Shown: positions 1 to 22,322 of the stretch, in pieces
Layout: each line of letters begins with the position of its first letter
Position numbering within the stretch: position 1 is the stretch's first letter
The notes under the pieces: model-generated
Databases searched by the model: none
What the model was told of the DNA's origin: nothing
What the model saw: only the letters and a program-made list of their open reading frames with translations
Made by a program: the position numbers and the translations under genes
IMG/VR virus record: IMGVR_UViG_3300010399_000075
Coordinates: 1 to 25,884 of that record
DNA length: 25,884 bases
Reading direction: 5' to 3' (one strand)
From: a virus

Positions 1-145
1 GGGACTGGGTCCTTCTGCGTGTACCACGTATCTTTGCTAAGAGTAACAGCGAAGCCACGTGCACCGCTAAAAGGATTGCAATTGCCCACGCAATTGCCCC
101 GATTATCTCGCTGAATCTGCTCAGCCAAGTATCTATTGCTTCCAT
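1..145 (-). CDS. Nested small membrane protein, partial at left edge
   Basis: An ATG at 143-145 lies 7 nt after a GGAGG and opens a frame to the edge (48 codons). It is nested in another frame inside the exported-protein ORF that starts at 215. The product begins MEAIDTWLSRF, has a long hydrophobic helix over residues 14-37 (rich in Ala, Ile and Leu) and then a basic tail (KIRGTRRRTQ). This is a one-TM layout, possibly N-out/C-in by the positive-inside rule. The direct repeat GCAATTGCCC (78-87 and 90-99) encodes Ala-Ile-Ala-Trp/Ala-Ile-Ala here and Gly-Asn-Cys repeats in the other frame. The nested arrangement recalls spanin pairs, but the order and motifs do not match Rz/Rz1. Function is unknown. 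Confidence 0.5.
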   Translation of the reverse strand, partial: MEAIDTWLSRFSEIIGAIAWAIAILLAVHVASLLLLAKIRGTRRRTQS

Positions 146-215
146 AATTGGCCTCCGCGGGCGCATGTGATAGGTTTAAGGCGAGAATTGCTGCGTATAA
201 GTACACACTAGCCAT
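1..215 (-). CDS. Exported small protein, partial at left edge
   Basis: The frame is open from an ATG at 213-215 to the window edge (71 codons, no stop). A GGAG Shine-Dalgarno sequence lies about 8 nt upstream. The N-terminus looks like a signal peptide: a hydrophobic core (VYLYAAILALNL, residues 4-15), then a small-residue stretch HAPAEA that fits signal peptidase I cleavage near residues 20-22. The mature part begins NYGSNRY and has a closely spaced cysteine pair (GNCVGNCNPF). There is no lipobox, so it is not an obvious Rz1-type lipoprotein. The start overlaps the end of the 208-417 gene by 8 nt. A second frame (1-145) starts inside it with its own better ribosome site, so either or both may be expressed. 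I do not recognise a family; an exported periplasmic protein is inferred. Confidence 0.55.
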   Translation of the reverse strand, partial: MASVYLYAAILALNLSHAPAEANYGSNRYLAEQIQRDNRGNCVGNCNPFSGARGFAVTLSKDTWYTQKDPV

Positions 216-417
216 TGTTTTTCTCCGTGTCTTGGTACTCGTACCTGCCCTTGAGGTCGAACAGAGTAGCGTTCATCCACTCATGTTCAGTGATTTCGAA
301 CTTGTTACCGGGTATGGCTTGGATGTCACCACCCACCGCCCTACCATTGGTCTCGGCCACCTTGCCACAGTAGACAAGGCCGAAGCACCAGTAGTAATAG
401 AAATAGTACTTAGTCAT
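208..417 (-). CDS. Hypothetical small protein (69 aa)
   Basis: The ATG at 415-417 overlaps the stop of the upstream gene (TGATG), so translation is probably coupled. An in-frame TTG one codon earlier is a less likely start. The N-terminus is unusually aromatic (a Tyr/Phe/Trp-rich run YYFYYYWCF), followed by a mixed polar region with no motif I recognise. It is not a clear TM helix because tyrosines dominate. It is part of the leftward small-gene operon and its end overlaps the next gene by 8 nt. No function is assigned. Confidence 0.6.
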   Translation of the reverse strand: MTKYYFYYYWCFGLVYCGKVAETNGRAVGGDIQAIPGNKFEITEHEWMNATLFDLKGRYEYQDTEKNNG

Positions 418-970: not shown

Positions 971-1075
971 TTACGAAGGCAAGAAGTACCACGCTACGAC
1001 AGAGATTACCAAGATAACAAAGCACACCAAAGCGTAGACAAACTCCTGTTCTAGCCAGTCAGGTTTGTTAGTCAT
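971..1075 (-). CDS. Single-TM microprotein (34 aa)
   Basis: A very strong ribosome site (GGAGGAGG) directly precedes ATG 1073-1075. That ATG overlaps the stop of the 1072-1212 gene as ATGA, so I prefer it to the longer frame starting at 1168. The product is a short acidic head (MTNKPDWLEQEF) followed by one hydrophobic helix (about residues 13-31) ending WYFLPS. The strong ribosome site suggests high expression. A membrane-inserted microprotein such as an inhibitor, a small holin-like or a host-modulating peptide is possible, but nothing in the sequence decides among them. Confidence 0.65.
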   Translation of the reverse strand: MTNKPDWLEQEFVYALVCFVILVISVVAWYFLPS

Positions 1076-1212
1076 TTCCTCCTCCAACGTATCAAGTACA
1101 ACGCATGTACATCGGGCCGACGAGAGTGCTTCCTCGCCATCTTGCGGGTAGGGAATAGTAAGTAACAATACTTACCTTCCCTCTCGACTACGAGATAAAA
1201 CATATAGATCAT
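1072..1212 (-). CDS. Hidden 46-aa coupled gene
   Basis: The ATG at 1210-1212 overlaps the stop of the NYN gene (TGA, 1209-1211) and has GGAGG 7 nt upstream. The stop (1072-1074) overlaps the next start as ATGA. Coupling on both sides, plus filling the gap exactly, supports a real gene. The product begins MIYMFYLVVEREGKYCYLLF and ends with a very basic tail (RKMARKHSRRP and RWRRK). The basic C-terminus could bind nucleic acid; no family is recognised. Confidence 0.6.
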   Translation of the reverse strand: MIYMFYLVVEREGKYCYLLFPTRKMARKHSRRPDVHALYLIRWRRK

Positions 1213-1781
1213 GACCCACCTCCCTCAAGGAACCGTTGTGCACGTTCGGGACGATCCCAATAGAACTTAGCTTTGTAGTCAGGGTCCATCAGATCAATGA
1301 ACTCATTGGACTGGCGGCGGAGTTCGTCAGCCACCATACTGGGCCGTGTAAGACACGTCGATACGACCGTGACCTTCACTCCCTGTGACTGTACGTCCTC
1401 CACCGCCATCCGAAAGTCTCCATCCCCTGTGAAGAGAACGATATGGTTAGCCCACCGTGCAGCTTTCAGGATGTGCACGGCAATCTCAACATCCATATTG
1501 CCCTTCATTTCAGGGCGCGAGCCTCCATTATCGAAGTACTTCACAGGCTTAGAGACCAAGACGTAACCATTGTATGAGATGTGGTCGATCATCTTGAAGA
1601 GATTGTTAGGAACCTTCGGGTCCTTCTCAGGCAGAGCAGTGAAGTACATAGCCTGCTGAGGCTTGAAGTATTTCAATGTCTTCTGCCAATCGATCTGATA
1701 ACCCAGTACACGCTGGGTTTCATACGCATTGGCCCCGTCGATCAATAGGGCCGTGACTTCGTTGGGTCTACTGAGCCACAT
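1209..1781 (-). CDS. NYN-domain (LabA/DUF88-like) ribonuclease
   Basis: The product is 190 aa from ATG 1779-1781, chosen because GGAGG lies 7 nt upstream; a longer frame from 1832 has no ribosome site. The family hallmarks are clear: a first strand with ALLIDGANAY (D15, N18), a central helix with KGNMDVEIAVHIL (D97), and a fourth strand with HIVLFTGDGDF (D120, D122). These acidic residues form the metal-binding site of NYN/PIN-like nucleases, which cleave RNA. The C-terminus (about 160-190) is charged and may be a flexible tail. The start overlaps the preceding gene by 14 nt and the stop overlaps the next gene by ATGA. A role in host or phage RNA processing during takeover is inferred. Confidence 0.88.
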   Translation of the reverse strand: MWLSRPNEVTALLIDGANAYETQRVLGYQIDWQKTLKYFKPQQAMYFTALPEKDPKVPNNLFKMIDHISYNGYVLVSKPVKYFDNGGSRPEMKGNMDVEIAVHILKAARWANHIVLFTGDGDFRMAVEDVQSQGVKVTVVSTCLTRPSMVADELRRQSNEFIDLMDPDYKAKFYWDRPERAQRFLEGGGS

Positions 1782-1980
1782 AGAAACCTCCATCCCATTC
1801 ACCTTCCCAGTTATTACGGAAACCAGGACCACCGGGCTTACGAGAGTCTCGCACCTCGCCAGGAGTACGAGCCTTAGTCCACCACCGTCGGCGCACTTCG
1901 CCAGTTCGGCTGTCGTAGTACGTAGTCTCGCCGGTGTTACTGTTCACCACCTTGTTTGTATGCCTCTTTCTCCGCTTCAT
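1768..1980 (-). CDS. Basic small protein (70 aa)
   Basis: ATG 1978-1980 is preceded by AAGGGGAAAG, and the gene overlaps the end of the zinc-ribbon gene by 44 nt in another frame. The product starts KRRKRHTNK, continues with a polar segment (NSNTGETTYYDSRTGEVRRRWW) and a Gly/Pro/Arg-rich middle, and ends WDGGFYVAQ. The basic, low-complexity composition suggests nucleic-acid binding or disorder. Directly upstream of and overlapping the NYN gene, it might be a partner, but only position supports that. Confidence 0.55.
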   Translation of the reverse strand: MKRRKRHTNKVVNSNTGETTYYDSRTGEVRRRWWTKARTPGEVRDSRKPGGPGFRNNWEGEWDGGFYVAQ

Positions 1981-3477: not shown

Positions 3478-3520
3478 CACCTTAGCTCCTTATGTGGCCG
3501 ACCTATCATCTTTTTTACCT

Positions 3521-3536
3521 ATCACAATTTTGTGAT
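3521..3536. promoter_or_regulatory. Inverted repeat ATCACAA-TT-TTGTGAT
   Basis: Arms of 7 bp around a 2-nt centre, in the gene-free interval 3322-3576 upstream of the left-operon promoter. Symmetry and position fit a dimeric regulator site; no regulator is identified. Confidence 0.4.
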
Positions 3537-7420: not shown

Positions 7421-7710
7421 TGCCCTTGATTGAATATTCAGTGAGTCTTGGAAATCTTCTTACGATCTTCGCGACCGTAGGCTCCGTAATGACCTTCATG
7501 TATACCATGCGTGGTGACATTTGGGTTGTCAAAAACGATATCAAACACTTAGAGGAAAGCCAGAAGTCCCTAGCAGAGGCATTCAGCCAGCTGGGTAAGA
7601 TCCTTACTGCAGTTGCAGTCCAGGATACTAGGTTAACTATGATTGAACGAAAGATCGACGAACTCGCACATGGACAAGGTTATGTCGACGCAAGGAAAGA
7701 TAGAACCTAA
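7420..7710 (+). CDS. N-terminal TM, coiled-coil protein (96 aa)
   Basis: ATG 7420 overlaps the previous stop. One TM helix (about 10-28, LGNLLTIFATVGSVMTFMY) precedes a heptad-like helix (about 36-85: NDIKHLEESQKSLAEAF, QLGKILTAVA, MIERKIDELAHG). The topology (membrane-anchored at the N-terminus, long coiled coil) is that of inner-membrane spanin subunits, but no outer-membrane partner is obvious nearby. It is followed by a protein of opposite layout (coiled coil then TM). A lysis or virion role is possible. Confidence 0.65.
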   Translation: MPLIEYSVSLGNLLTIFATVGSVMTFMYTMRGDIWVVKNDIKHLEESQKSLAEAFSQLGKILTAVAVQDTRLTMIERKIDELAHGQGYVDARKDRT

Positions 7711-8144
7711 TGCCTAATAGAATACCATCTCTTGGTGGTGTCGTTCCTGTTCCTGATCCTACTAAACTCACAACTGATGCTGTAGACAAGGCTAAAGTAG
7801 AAGTAGACGTACGTCTTAGTTCCATGAAGGAATTAATGGATGAGAAGTTCAGGGGCGTGGCAGCTGAGTTTGCTATGAGAGATACAGCCCTTCAAGCAGC
7901 ATTGAAAGCTGCAGAAGCCGCTGTAAGACAACAAAACGAATCAAATACCGTAGCTATAGATAAATCAGCTACAGCCTTTACCAAACAAATCGATGGGCTC
8001 GATGAGAAGATCAATGACCTCAAAGAACGTATGTCTGAATTATCTAGTAAGAACTACGGAGCCATTGGTGCTTACATCGTAGGTGCCGTAGGCATTATAG
8101 CGATTGTTATAACTCTAGCAGCTACATTATTTAGACACGTATGA
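7710..8144 (+). CDS. Coiled-coil protein with C-terminal TM (144 aa)
   Basis: The long helical region (about 25-112) contains RDTALQAALKAAEAAVRQQN and LDEKINDLKERMSEL, and a single C-terminal TM helix (about 118-140, AYIVGAVGIIAIVITLAATLF). This layout recurs in small phage proteins annotated as membrane-anchored coiled coils. It is coupled to both neighbours (TAATG in, ATGA out to the terminase). Tail-anchored coiled-coil protein is secure; role in lysis or assembly is inference. Confidence 0.75.
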   Translation: MPNRIPSLGGVVPVPDPTKLTTDAVDKAKVEVDVRLSSMKELMDEKFRGVAAEFAMRDTALQAALKAAEAAVRQQNESNTVAIDKSATAFTKQIDGLDEKINDLKERMSELSSKNYGAIGAYIVGAVGIIAIVITLAATLFRHV

Positions 8145-18757: not shown

Positions 18758-20886
18758 TGCCACAGCAGTCTAGCGTCTTCGCAGAAAACAGTTTTATAAA
18801 TGGCGTCGTAACAGAAGCCACTGGTCTTAACTTCCCTGATAAGGCAGTCAAAGAAGCGTACGACTGTATCTTCGACTTAGATGGTAGTGTCTACCGTCGT
18901 CTAGGGTTTGATTTTGAAACTAACTTCCAAACTAAGACTATCAACAGAGACAACAAAGTAATTAAGAGTTATCTCTGGCAGAACGTATCAGGTAATGGAA
19001 ACGTTACTGTAGTTGTTGTTCAAGTAGGTAATACTCTGTATTTCTACGAGACTACTGGAAGCGGAAGCTTTTCAGAGGGGGCTCAGACAACTACAGTAAC
19101 TCTTACTCCAGTTTCAGGCGCACCTTCTACTGATACCGTAGAAGCCCAATTCTGTGATGGTAATGGTTACTTAATCGTAGTCCATCCCTACTGTGAGCCC
19201 ATGCGTATCGATTACGATCCATCAGGTCACGCCGCGTCTGCTACTAATATCATCCTTAAGATCAGGGACTTCGAAGGGGCAAGTACTGATCCCTACGCAG
19301 TAGACTTCAGACCTACTACTACCTTTGGGGCTATGAATACCCCACATTGGTACAACTTGACTAATCAAGGTTGGACTAGTACTAACCTTACCGCATGGGA
19401 TGCTGCCCAGACGACTATGCCGTCTAACGCAGATGTTATGTGGAGGTTTAAGGATTCGTCAGATAACTTCGATGCTAGTTCTACTAGTGTAGCTAGAGTT
19501 AACTCTGGTAATACCCCAGCACCTAAGGGTTATTATATACTAACTCTATCCAACCAAGATAGACCTGCTGCTGTAGGCTCTGCTCCCGGTAGTGTACCTA
19601 GTACAACTACTGGTTTTCAACGTCCGTCTGTATGTGCTTTCTTCGCAGGTAGAGTATTCTATGGTGGTATTAATTACGTTGGTTTCAACTCTAATATATA
19701 CTTCACTCAGATTATAGAACGTCTAGATCAATACGGAAGTACCTACCAAGTAAATGATCCCACTTCCGAGAATCTATTTGATCTACTCCCCAGTGATGGT
19801 GGAGTAATAAGTATTCCTGAAGCAGGAACCATTATTAAGATGTTCACAGTCCCCGGTGGTCTGTGTGTATTCGCGGCTAACGGCTTGTGGTTTATCACAG
19901 GTTCCACCGGCTTAGGTTTCACAGCGACAGATTACGCAGTCCTTAAGATTGCAGACATCTCTACTATCTCTGACGCATCCTTTGTTAATATCAACGGTTT
20001 TCCCGCTTGGTGGAATGCAGAAGGTATTTATGTTCTTCAGGGTCAGCAGGGTGGTCTTCCGACTGTCAAGTCTTTGACTTACGATACGTTCAAGACCTTC
20101 TACGATGAAATACCCGTTACATCTAAGAGGTACGCTAAAGGATTCTACGATAAGACTGATGGTATCATCCGTTGGATTTACCGTAGTGAAACTACCACAG
20201 AGTTAAACGAAACCTACGAGTACGATAGAGTACTAAACTATAACGTAAGAACTAACGCTTTCTTTCCTTGGACTATTACAGATAGTCCTGTGAAGGTCCA
20301 TAGTATATTATCTTCTGAACTCGTTACCCGTCCTGTTTTAATCAACAACGTAGTTGCGAACGGAGGCGTTGATAACGTCATAGATGGATCAGGTAATCAA
20401 GTAATTGCTTTTGCTGACAGTGGTAGTGATGACCAACAAATAGATAAGTACTTAGTTTCCTACTTCGATGGTACCGACTATAAGTTTACATTCGCTAATG
20501 TTCATAGTGAGTTATTGAAAGATTGGTTCTCTTACGATGACTTCGGAGTACACTACGATAGTTACTTCATAACGGGATATAAACTCCCTGGTCAGGCTAT
20601 AAGAAAGTCTCAGAATTGCTGGGTACAAATCTATAGTCGACTTGATGATGAAGTAATGTACCGCTTCCAAGCTATCTGGGACTTCGCAACAACGGGTTCG
20701 GGTACAGGTAGATGGAGTACAAATCAATTAATCATCCATGATGATCTCGATTACAGTAACGCCTCTAGAAGGCTTAAAGTAAGAGGCCATGGTAAAGCCC
20801 TACAATTCAGAGTGTCTTCCGTAGAAGATAATAACTTCGATATAATCGGATGGACTACTTTACAAACTATAAATGGAGTCCCGTAA
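18757..20886 (+). CDS. Tail tubular protein B-like (nozzle)
   Basis: The 709-aa product begins FAENSFINGVVTEATGLNFP, typical of T7 gp12-type nozzle proteins, and is beta-rich throughout. Characteristic segments are RPSVCAFFAGRVFYGG (about residue 290), IKMFTVPGGLCVFAANGLWF and WNAEGIYVLQGQQGG. It forms the hexameric nozzle at the tail tip. Length is near that of T7 gp12 (794 aa). Starts on the stop of tail tubular A; the lysin starts on its stop. Confidence 0.88.
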   Translation: MPQQSSVFAENSFINGVVTEATGLNFPDKAVKEAYDCIFDLDGSVYRRLGFDFETNFQTKTINRDNKVIKSYLWQNVSGNGNVTVVVVQVGNTLYFYETTGSGSFSEGAQTTTVTLTPVSGAPSTDTVEAQFCDGNGYLIVVHPYCEPMRIDYDPSGHAASATNIILKIRDFEGASTDPYAVDFRPTTTFGAMNTPHWYNLTNQGWTSTNLTAWDAAQTTMPSNADVMWRFKDSSDNFDASSTSVARVNSGNTPAPKGYYILTLSNQDRPAAVGSAPGSVPSTTTGFQRPSVCAFFAGRVFYGGINYVGFNSNIYFTQIIERLDQYGSTYQVNDPTSENLFDLLPSDGGVISIPEAGTIIKMFTVPGGLCVFAANGLWFITGSTGLGFTATDYAVLKIADISTISDASFVNINGFPAWWNAEGIYVLQGQQGGLPTVKSLTYDTFKTFYDEIPVTSKRYAKGFYDKTDGIIRWIYRSETTTELNETYEYDRVLNYNVRTNAFFPWTITDSPVKVHSILSSELVTRPVLINNVVANGGVDNVIDGSGNQVIAFADSGSDDQQIDKYLVSYFDGTDYKFTFANVHSELLKDWFSYDDFGVHYDSYFITGYKLPGQAIRKSQNCWVQIYSRLDDEVMYRFQAIWDFATTGSGTGRWSTNQLIIHDDLDYSNASRRLKVRGHGKALQFRVSSVEDNNFDIIGWTTLQTINGVP

Positions 20887-21650
20887 TGAGCCTTGCTCAA
20901 GCAAATCTAAAACGATGGAATGACTGTCACATCTCTGCTGAGATGGGTCCAGTCTTCAAACAAGCTGCAGATAGAATTAATCTTCCCCAGAACCGTCACC
21001 GCTACGAAGCCGTATCTAAGATGGTTAAAGAAGCCGGCTATTCCCAGATCCCTTGGGAGTTCATTGCCGTTGCACATAACCGTGAGTCTAATGGTAACTT
21101 CGATACATACTTAGGCAACGGTCAACCACTCAGTCAGAAAACTACAATCGTTCCTAAGGGTCGTGGTCCTTTCAAGGATTGGGAAGCAGGTGCACTCGAT
21201 GCATTGATTAACTGCCCACCGTACGCTGCCAAGAATAAAGATTGGTCTATCGGTGGTACCCTCGCTAAACTGGAGGAATACAATGGTCTCGGCTATGCTA
21301 GCAAGGGAGTTCCTTCTCCTTACCTCTGGGCTGGTACTGACCAGTATGTTAAAGGTAAGTATGTTAGTGATGGGAAGTACGATCCTAATCATGTGGATAA
21401 ACAACTCGGAGCCGCCGGTCTCCTGAAGTTCCTTGGCTACGGTCGTAAAGGTCCTACAGGTCTTGGTTCAGTCGTCGTAGCCGCTGGTACAGCTGCTGCC
21501 GCTGGTGCCGCAACACAATCGCCTTCATGGTGGATGTGGGCTCAGGATCATTGGGTTGTCCTTGGTCTTGCTGTCGTTGGTCTAGCTATCGTTGCTGATC
21601 TTTGTATTGCCCTCTACAACAACGAAAAGAATCAACTCCATGTTGGATAA
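20886..21650 (+). CDS. Lysozyme/muramidase-like lysin with C-terminal TM
   Basis: The start at 20886 overlaps the nozzle stop; the frame from 20850 is less likely. The 254-aa product has a wall-degrading fold of the lytic type: FIAVAHNRESNGNFDTYLGN (E67 the probable acid), VPKGRGPF, DALINCPPY, LEEYNGLGYASKG, SPYLWAGTDQYVKGKYV. This set of motifs matches a family of small lysozyme-like proteins common in alphaproteobacteria and their phages. The C-terminal part is Ala-rich and ends with a TM helix (about 223-244) and a short tail. A membrane-tethered lysin, or one needing release by the holin, is inferred. No signal peptide at the N-terminus. Confidence 0.82.
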   Translation: MSLAQANLKRWNDCHISAEMGPVFKQAADRINLPQNRHRYEAVSKMVKEAGYSQIPWEFIAVAHNRESNGNFDTYLGNGQPLSQKTTIVPKGRGPFKDWEAGALDALINCPPYAAKNKDWSIGGTLAKLEEYNGLGYASKGVPSPYLWAGTDQYVKGKYVSDGKYDPNHVDKQLGAAGLLKFLGYGRKGPTGLGSVVVAAGTAAAAGAATQSPSWWMWAQDHWVVLGLAVVGLAIVADLCIALYNNEKNQLHVG

Positions 21651-21888
21651 ATTTACAATCTGGTGGGATAAACTCAAAGCCTTCTTCAAGCGCTCTGAAG
21701 TTATCCTTTACTCCCGTCTTCAAACTCTATCTGGTTTCGTACTTGCCGTACTCGGTACTATTGACTGGCAGCAGATCTCTACATGGGATTTCACTACGCC
21801 TAAGCAAACTGTTTGGCTTGGTGTCGGTCTGATTGTTAACGGTTCGGTTACCGAACTCTTGAGGCGTCGTAACTCGGCCTTAACGTAA
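21640..21888 (+). CDS. Putative two-TM holin-like protein (82 aa)
   Basis: The start at 21640 overlaps the lysin end by 11 nt; the frame from 21592 would begin inside it. Product: amphipathic N-terminus (MLDKFTIWWDKLKAFFKRSE), TM1 (about 29-43, LSGFVLAVLGTIDW), a loop, TM2 (about 57-71, VWLGVGLIVNGSVTE) and a basic tail (LLRRRNS). Size, two TM segments and location after the lysin fit a class II holin. No motif proves it. Confidence 0.65.
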   Translation: MLDKFTIWWDKLKAFFKRSEVILYSRLQTLSGFVLAVLGTIDWQQISTWDFTTPKQTVWLGVGLIVNGSVTELLRRRNSALT

Positions 21889-22322
21889 TGATGGGATTAC
21901 TTGCCCTAATACCCGGACTGTTTACTACAGTCAACGGGATAACTAATGCGATCTCTAATGAACGGTTAAAGCTTATACAAGCTAAGACTGACCAAGAAAA
22001 GATCGCTGCTCAAGAACGTATAACTTCATTACAGGCAAAACGAGATGTCCTCATTGCAGAAAGTGGTCGCAGTAGCTTTAATGCTTACGTGCGTGGTAGT
22101 ATTGGCCTTTTCGTATCTCTGATACTAGGTAAGTTACTCTTCTGGGATAAAGCGGTCGGCTCTCTAGCCGGGTGTTCTGGTAGGTTCGGTAGTCAAGATG
22201 GTTGTAATATCTTCTTGACTGACCCCCTCGATGCCAACCAATGGGCAGTTATTACTGCAGTCATTGGTTTCTACTTCCTCTACGAAGGTGCCGTTAACGT
22301 CACAAGGATTATTAAAAGCTAA
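21888..22322 (+). CDS. Phage holin, GTA-type 3-TM family
   Basis: ATG 21888 overlaps the previous stop. The 144-aa product has a hydrophobic N-terminus (LLALIPGLFTTV), a charged coiled-coil helix (about 23-58, SNERLKLIQAKTDQEKIAAQ), a TM (about 68-86, VRGSIGLFVSLILGKLLFW) and a final TM (VITAVIGFYFLYEGA) before a basic end. That layout and the WDKAV...NQWAVITAVIGFYF pattern match the holin family found in gene-transfer agents and phages of alphaproteobacteria. Forms membrane lesions for lysin access. Confidence 0.78.
   Translation: MMGLLALIPGLFTTVNGITNAISNERLKLIQAKTDQEKIAAQERITSLQAKRDVLIAESGRSSFNAYVRGSIGLFVSLILGKLLFWDKAVGSLAGCSGRFGSQDGCNIFLTDPLDANQWAVITAVIGFYFLYEGAVNVTRIIKS

Follow-up and report, generated by a model that had tools for sequence, protein, structure and literature searches.

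A nested gene pair at the contig edge

The window, the whole stretch of DNA analysed here, comprises an entire IMG/VR virus record (25,884 bases), so that the contig ends at its left edge. Two overlapping reading frames on the minus strand run off this edge. Their features, together with a landmark gene of the region, are as follows.

3-215, minus strand: 5´ part of the outer gene, encoding a putative exported protein (ORF from the ATG at 215; homologs in G001/G002, L083/L084 and G004)
150-215, minus strand: predicted signal peptide of the outer protein, MASVYLYAAILALNLSHAPAEA, with heuristic cleavage after AEA and no lipobox
223-226, minus strand: Shine-Dalgarno sequence GGAG of the outer gene, from the sequence
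2-145, minus strand: inner gene, encoding a small single-transmembrane (TM) protein with a basic C-terminal tail, in the +1 frame relative to the outer ORF
152-156, minus strand: Shine-Dalgarno sequence GGAGG of the inner gene, from the sequence
38-106, minus strand: predicted TM helix of the inner protein, IIGAIAWAIAILLAVHVASLLLL (hydropathy 2.50 over 18 residues; a homolog is modelled as one helix)
78-87 and 90-99, plus strand: two copies of the repeat GCAATTGCCC, with 12-nt spacing
1209-1799, minus strand: NYN-domain gene, marking the conserved slot upstream of the pair (PF01936, E=6e-22)

An earlier sequence-only reading of this DNA had proposed a signal-peptide ORF starting at ATG 215 and a TM ORF in another frame starting at ATG 145, both reaching the left edge, and both were borne out. 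The outer ORF encodes 71 aa up to the contig edge (MASVYLYAAILALNLSHAPAEA, then NYGSNRY...) and the inner ORF, in the +1 frame, encodes 48 aa (MEAIDTWLSRFSEIIGAIAWAIAILLAVHVASLLLLAKIRGTRRRTQS), with zero stops in either. Each ORF was also found to have its own Shine-Dalgarno sequence, as had been claimed (226-223 for the outer, 156-152 for the inner). A second in-frame inner ATG at 166 lacks a Shine-Dalgarno sequence, and the relatives favour ATG 145. Signal peptides, here and in the relatives, were called by eye or by heuristic. The direct repeat, noted before as GNC-type in one frame and AIA-type in the other, indeed translates as GNCVGNC in the outer and as AIAWAIA in the inner frame, and since the spacing of the GCAATTGCCC copies is 12 nt, both frames are kept across it. 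This repeat is particular to the window phage and is missing from the relatives in the alignment. We also considered CCTATCACA, which is conserved in the signal-peptide DNA, as a promoter-like repeat and rejected it, the extended form being no more frequent than chance in the window.

The inner proteins consist of one TM helix and an arginine-rich C-terminal tail. The model of an inner homolog showed a single helix spanning residues 2-40, with pLDDT ~90 over the first 30 residues and a low-confidence basic tail. Given the arginine-rich tail and the positive-inside rule, the topology is probably N-out/C-in. The AlphaFold model of the outer protein had a pLDDT of 42 and no confident fold. Searches of Pfam, PHROGs, NCBIfam and PADLOC gave no convincing match to either protein and none above a curated cut-off, and no convincing match was found among PDB sequences.

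Two further observations were made in the window. A 34-aa single-TM protein is encoded at 971-1075 (minus strand) between the NYN and zinc-finger genes, and a 50% identical relative lies directly past the NYN gene in L088. At 3500-3535, in an intergenic region with minus-strand genes on either side, CCTATCA[CT] occurs twice, 16 nt apart, together with CACAATTTTGTG; paired CCTATCA copies are also present in G001 (L107), G004 and G019, and these pairs possibly represent a regulatory element.

The pair in related phages

The window portal matches PHROG 332 and is ~45% identical to the portals of Salinivibrio CW02, Vibrio ICP2 and Pseudomonas GP100, and the window phage is therefore a distant relative of the Zobellviridae. 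In this family the two strands are divided between structural genes and genes for replication and regulation, with replication on the minus strand (PMC9960094). The nested pair shares its strand with the NYN gene and, in relatives, with the primase-helicase; it is not grouped with the genes for terminase, portal and capsid or with the lysis-like genes.

Relatives were sampled by a portal scan, which gave 39 related loci, with G004 found by synteny and L083 and L084 by an NYN-alignment scan. The same nested pair occupies the same gene slot in four further lineages (G001/G002, L083, L084 and G004), where the order is the NYN gene, one or more small genes, the pair, and a gene related to or positioned like a 167-aa gene of G001. 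The window outer protein matched L003/G001 with E=5.7e-5 and also matched G002, and in G001 and G002 a +1 inner ORF starts at the corresponding point (outer A-N-[YH]-G). The inner ATG is in the +1 frame in 5/5 lineages (offsets 70, 73, 97, 97 and 106), with a Shine-Dalgarno-like sequence upstream, and the G001 outer gene has a strong one, AGGAGG.

Complete outer proteins in the relatives are 102-179 aa and inner proteins 43-61 aa, and both the length of the outer protein and the presence of a C-terminal TM segment vary. G001/G002 encode an outer protein of 179 aa with a C-terminal TM and an inner protein of 61 aa; G004 encodes proteins of 147 aa, again with a C-terminal TM, and 43 aa. The outer and inner proteins are 102 and 57 aa in L083 and 115 and 46 aa in L084, and these two outer proteins lack the C-terminal TM and share two conserved cysteines. 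Inner proteins are 18-35% identical to that of G001. The G004 homology is weak (25%), and its pair was missed by the architecture scans. The sequence-only reading had held that an early stop in one frame, or its lack of conservation in relatives, would count against the pair. The inner frame does stop early in the relatives, but it does so as a complete protein of 43-61 aa, so the stop is not refuting, and conservation was seen in both frames.

The pair is absent from the relatives L087, L088, L092, L093 and L095, and from the NYN-side slot in G005, G006 and G007. In G005 this slot holds a secreted RlpA/DPBB lytic-transglycosylase-like protein (L054:10535-10954, minus strand; PF03330, E=5e-22). 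No relatives were found in IMG/VR by peptide patterns from either frame of the window, in GenBank phages by DNA search or, with the homologs, by tblastn, or in the bacterial genomes searched. When the outer proteins of G001, G004 and L083 were used as queries, the only contig not already known was L049, which is identical to G001 across the pair. An architecture scan of the fetched loci detected only these pairs (G004 missed) and one case in G006. This G006 pair is unrelated and lies ahead of the DNA polymerase gene (L057:7614-8156, plus strand; inner ORF 7687-7914). It comprises an exported 180-aa outer protein, possibly with a cysteine peptidase/CHAP-like fold as judged by eye and with zero Pfam matches, and a +1 nested 75-aa TM protein with its own AGGAG (synonymous-recode P=5e-4).

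Signs of constraint on the two frames

Nested +1 TM ORFs with an ATG and a Shine-Dalgarno sequence are not very rare in these genomes, being found in 23/255 ORFs. Upon synonymous recoding with the outer protein held fixed, an inner frame equally open and hydrophobic arose in ≤0.15% of samples in every lineage; the window's own value was 0.8% under a more heavily smoothed codon table. However, control ORFs chosen for hydrophobicity gave equally small shuffle P values, and we therefore down-weighted the per-lineage values and regard the pattern in the window by itself as suggestive only. It is the recurrence in relatives that makes it more than chance.

The comparison of silent and nonsilent changes in relatives, suggested by the earlier reading, pointed, over G001 vs G002, L083/L084 and G001 vs L083 taken together, to constraint in both frames. 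In the overlap of G001 and G002, where there are six substitutions in total, 5/6 are silent in the inner frame and 0/6 in the outer; when changes of the same kind were placed at random, P was 0.012 for the inner frame and 0.15 for the outer. In the ungapped TM block of G001 vs L083, the BLOSUM score is +18 for the inner frame and -28 for the outer, and the common inner TM core reads VDGLIVLL / ADGLILFI. Further downstream it is the outer frame that is conserved, in the motif PxPYxxxWxxPxxQTA (E=4e-8 across 40 aa), with 16 invariant residues in this region across L083, L084 and G001. Between L083 and L084, differences at codon positions 1/2/3 of the outer frame are 0.54/0.36/0.43 in the TM half and 0.41/0.31/0.72 in the tail half, and the third-position excess is present in the tail and post-overlap parts.

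Both frames thus appear to be under selection. Recurrence in lineages not picked for the pattern, the limited identity of the outer proteins over the TM half (20-43%) and the substitution, BLOSUM, motif and codon-position evidence make dual coding in the nested pair very likely, and its conserved position, frame and architecture are likewise supported. The candidate new nested pair of the sequence-only reading is accordingly supported, with dual coding in five lineages and no known-family match.

Two readings would leave only one real protein. The inner TM frame could be an unexpressed side effect of codon usage and of homology in the outer frame, with the exported protein alone being real, as the chance nested TM ORFs of these genomes and the low identity of the inner proteins to that of G001 might suggest. 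The primase-helicase gene provides a parallel, a recurrent +1 open frame without evident function: ten such genes of the group share a frame open for ~110 codons over the Walker-B region (e.g. L084:9420-10910, L058, L057, L054), which mostly ends at a conserved stop and is probably a by-product of the conserved helicase. We consider this reading of the nested pair quite improbable, given an inner TM core conserved where the outer frame is not (G001 vs L083), the bias of the G001/G002 changes toward silence in the inner frame, and the recurrence of start, Shine-Dalgarno sequence, frame and length in five lineages. It is harder still to credit the converse, an accidental outer frame over an inner TM protein that alone is real. 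It would fit the 11/15 G001/G002 changes that are nonsynonymous in the outer frame and a signal-peptide part without strong third-position excess, but is opposed by the invariant motif residues across G001, L083 and L084, by the third-position excess beyond the TM half, by the match of the window outer protein to L003, and by the strong Shine-Dalgarno sequence of the G001 outer gene and the recurring signal peptide.

Possible roles at the envelope

The explanation we favour, and consider reasonably probable as a whole, is a genuine overprinted pair of podoviruses distantly related to the Zobellviridae that would act at the envelope; the pair looks real because the same nested layout is found again in four further lineages of phages. 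The outer gene would encode a signal-peptide protein exported to the periplasm, with an additional C-terminal TM anchor in G001 and G004. Directly downstream of the signal-peptide codons, the inner gene, with its own ATG and Shine-Dalgarno sequence, would produce a 43-61 aa inner-membrane protein with one helix and an arginine-rich cytoplasmic tail. Both proteins probably are made from one mRNA in a fixed ratio and probably act jointly at the inner membrane/periplasm.

Of the roles considered for the pair, an early one is the most likely, in superinfection exclusion or in takeover or blocking of a host envelope function. We infer this tentatively from position and evolution rate, since location on the replication strand and fast divergence favour an early host- or phage-facing envelope role. 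Outer aa identity between L083 and L084 is 0.38-0.67 by segment, vs 0.75-0.87 for three neighbours; a fourth neighbour, a 69-aa gene, has an identity of 0.57. Most neighbours, but not all, thus diverge more slowly than the pair.

The sequence-only reading had remarked that the pair recalls spanins while breaking their rules, and this was upheld, spanin membership failing on lipobox and gene order. An i-spanin has an N-terminal TM, an o-spanin a lipobox, and a u-spanin a lipobox and a C-terminal TM (PMC6139136). One of the three spanin gene architectures, an embedded or overlapped gene in another frame, is present in all five lineages. Neither frame of the pair has an o-spanin lipobox, the periplasmic coiled-coil domain of an i-spanin is absent, the inner protein ending in a short basic tail without a long periplasmic domain, and PF03245 (Rz) had zero matches in 12 genomes. 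A two-component spanin of the Rz/Rz1 type was ruled out by the missing lipobox, the reversed order and the replication strand. A unimolecular spanin was rejected as well, given the absent lipobox and a C-terminal TM found in G001/G004 but not in L083/L084.

A lysis device of another kind, a lipobox-free spanin replacement or a holin/antiholin regulator in phages without spanin lipoproteins, is an unlikely account. A lipoprotein scan of every frame, which recovered lambda Rz1 as a control, gave zero matches in the window and G019 and only implausible ones in G001 and G004, so that no frame of the group genomes examined holds a convincing lipoprotein gene; together with the missing Rz match, this would leave room for such a device. 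Spanin-less phages are known (~13% of genomes; PMC6139136), and the outer proteins of G001/G004, with signal peptide and C-terminal TM, resemble a u-spanin minus the lipid. Yet members without the pair (G005, G007, G020 and G021) also lack convincing lipoproteins; there is thus no complementarity, and the lack of spanins does not implicate the pair. The pair also lies on the replication strand, away from the lysozyme-like and holin-like genes at 20850-22319, and the L083/L084 outer proteins have no C-terminal TM.

Somewhat less likely again is a role of the inner protein as a small membrane toxin that would act by depolarisation or by inhibiting envelope synthesis, with the outer protein an exported modulator or independent. 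A single TM with a basic tail is found in type I toxins and single-gene lysis proteins, and the G004 inner protein weakly matched a model of type I toxins (E=0.004, well short of the cut-off); this match, however, reflects generic hydrophobic composition, and any toxicity is hypothetical.

Overprinted envelope gene pairs are of a known kind, and we matched this order and composition to no known pair; to our knowledge, Rz/Rz1 is the main known case of nested phage envelope genes. A conserved pair in the opposite order and without a lipid anchor broadens the known uses of overprinting and provides a case with visible inner-frame selection. It marks a candidate early membrane function in uncultured phages without recognisable spanins, where standard annotation would probably call just one of the two ORFs. 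The pair could even represent a novel class of envelope device made of two nested proteins, exported outside and TM inside, serving phages without a spanin lipoprotein in lipid-free outer-membrane disruption or as a compact superinfection-exclusion module. We hold this to be doubtful; if true, the unrelated G006 pair would have arrived at this layout independently.

Several characterized systems come closest to the pair. T4 Spackle and Imm, one a small exported periplasmic protein and the other a small protein of the inner membrane, are both made early and act in superinfection exclusion. The pair resembles them in combining an exported small protein, with two conserved cysteines in L083/L084, and a small inner-membrane protein, but the T4 genes are separate, zero relationship was found, and an exclusion role is here one that we only infer. 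The nested small TM lysis proteins phiX174 E, encoded inside D, and MS2 L likewise have a single TM and basic segments and are read in a shifted frame over another gene. They differ in that the outer gene here encodes an exported rather than a structural/scaffold protein and that the window phage has lysozyme-like and holin-like genes of its own, and there is no sequence match. The unimolecular spanin T1 gp11 shares an N-terminal export signal and C-terminal TM with the G001/G004 outer proteins; the pair differs in having no lipobox and lying outside the lysis cassette, and in the lack of the C-terminal TM in L083/L084. Embedded spanins also differ in gene layout: ~70% of the embedded o-spanins begin at 0.4-0.5 of the length of their host gene (PMC6139136), whereas the inner gene here begins close to the 5´ end of the outer one, in a pair located outside the lysis cassette. 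In lambda Rz/Rz1 the outer gene encodes a TM protein and the embedded gene a lipoprotein, whereas here it is the embedded product that has the TM segment, and the outer product is exported without a lipobox; the two systems are alike in encoding two envelope proteins per DNA stretch, in a +1 inner gene with its own Shine-Dalgarno sequence, and in constraint that is segregated between the frames.
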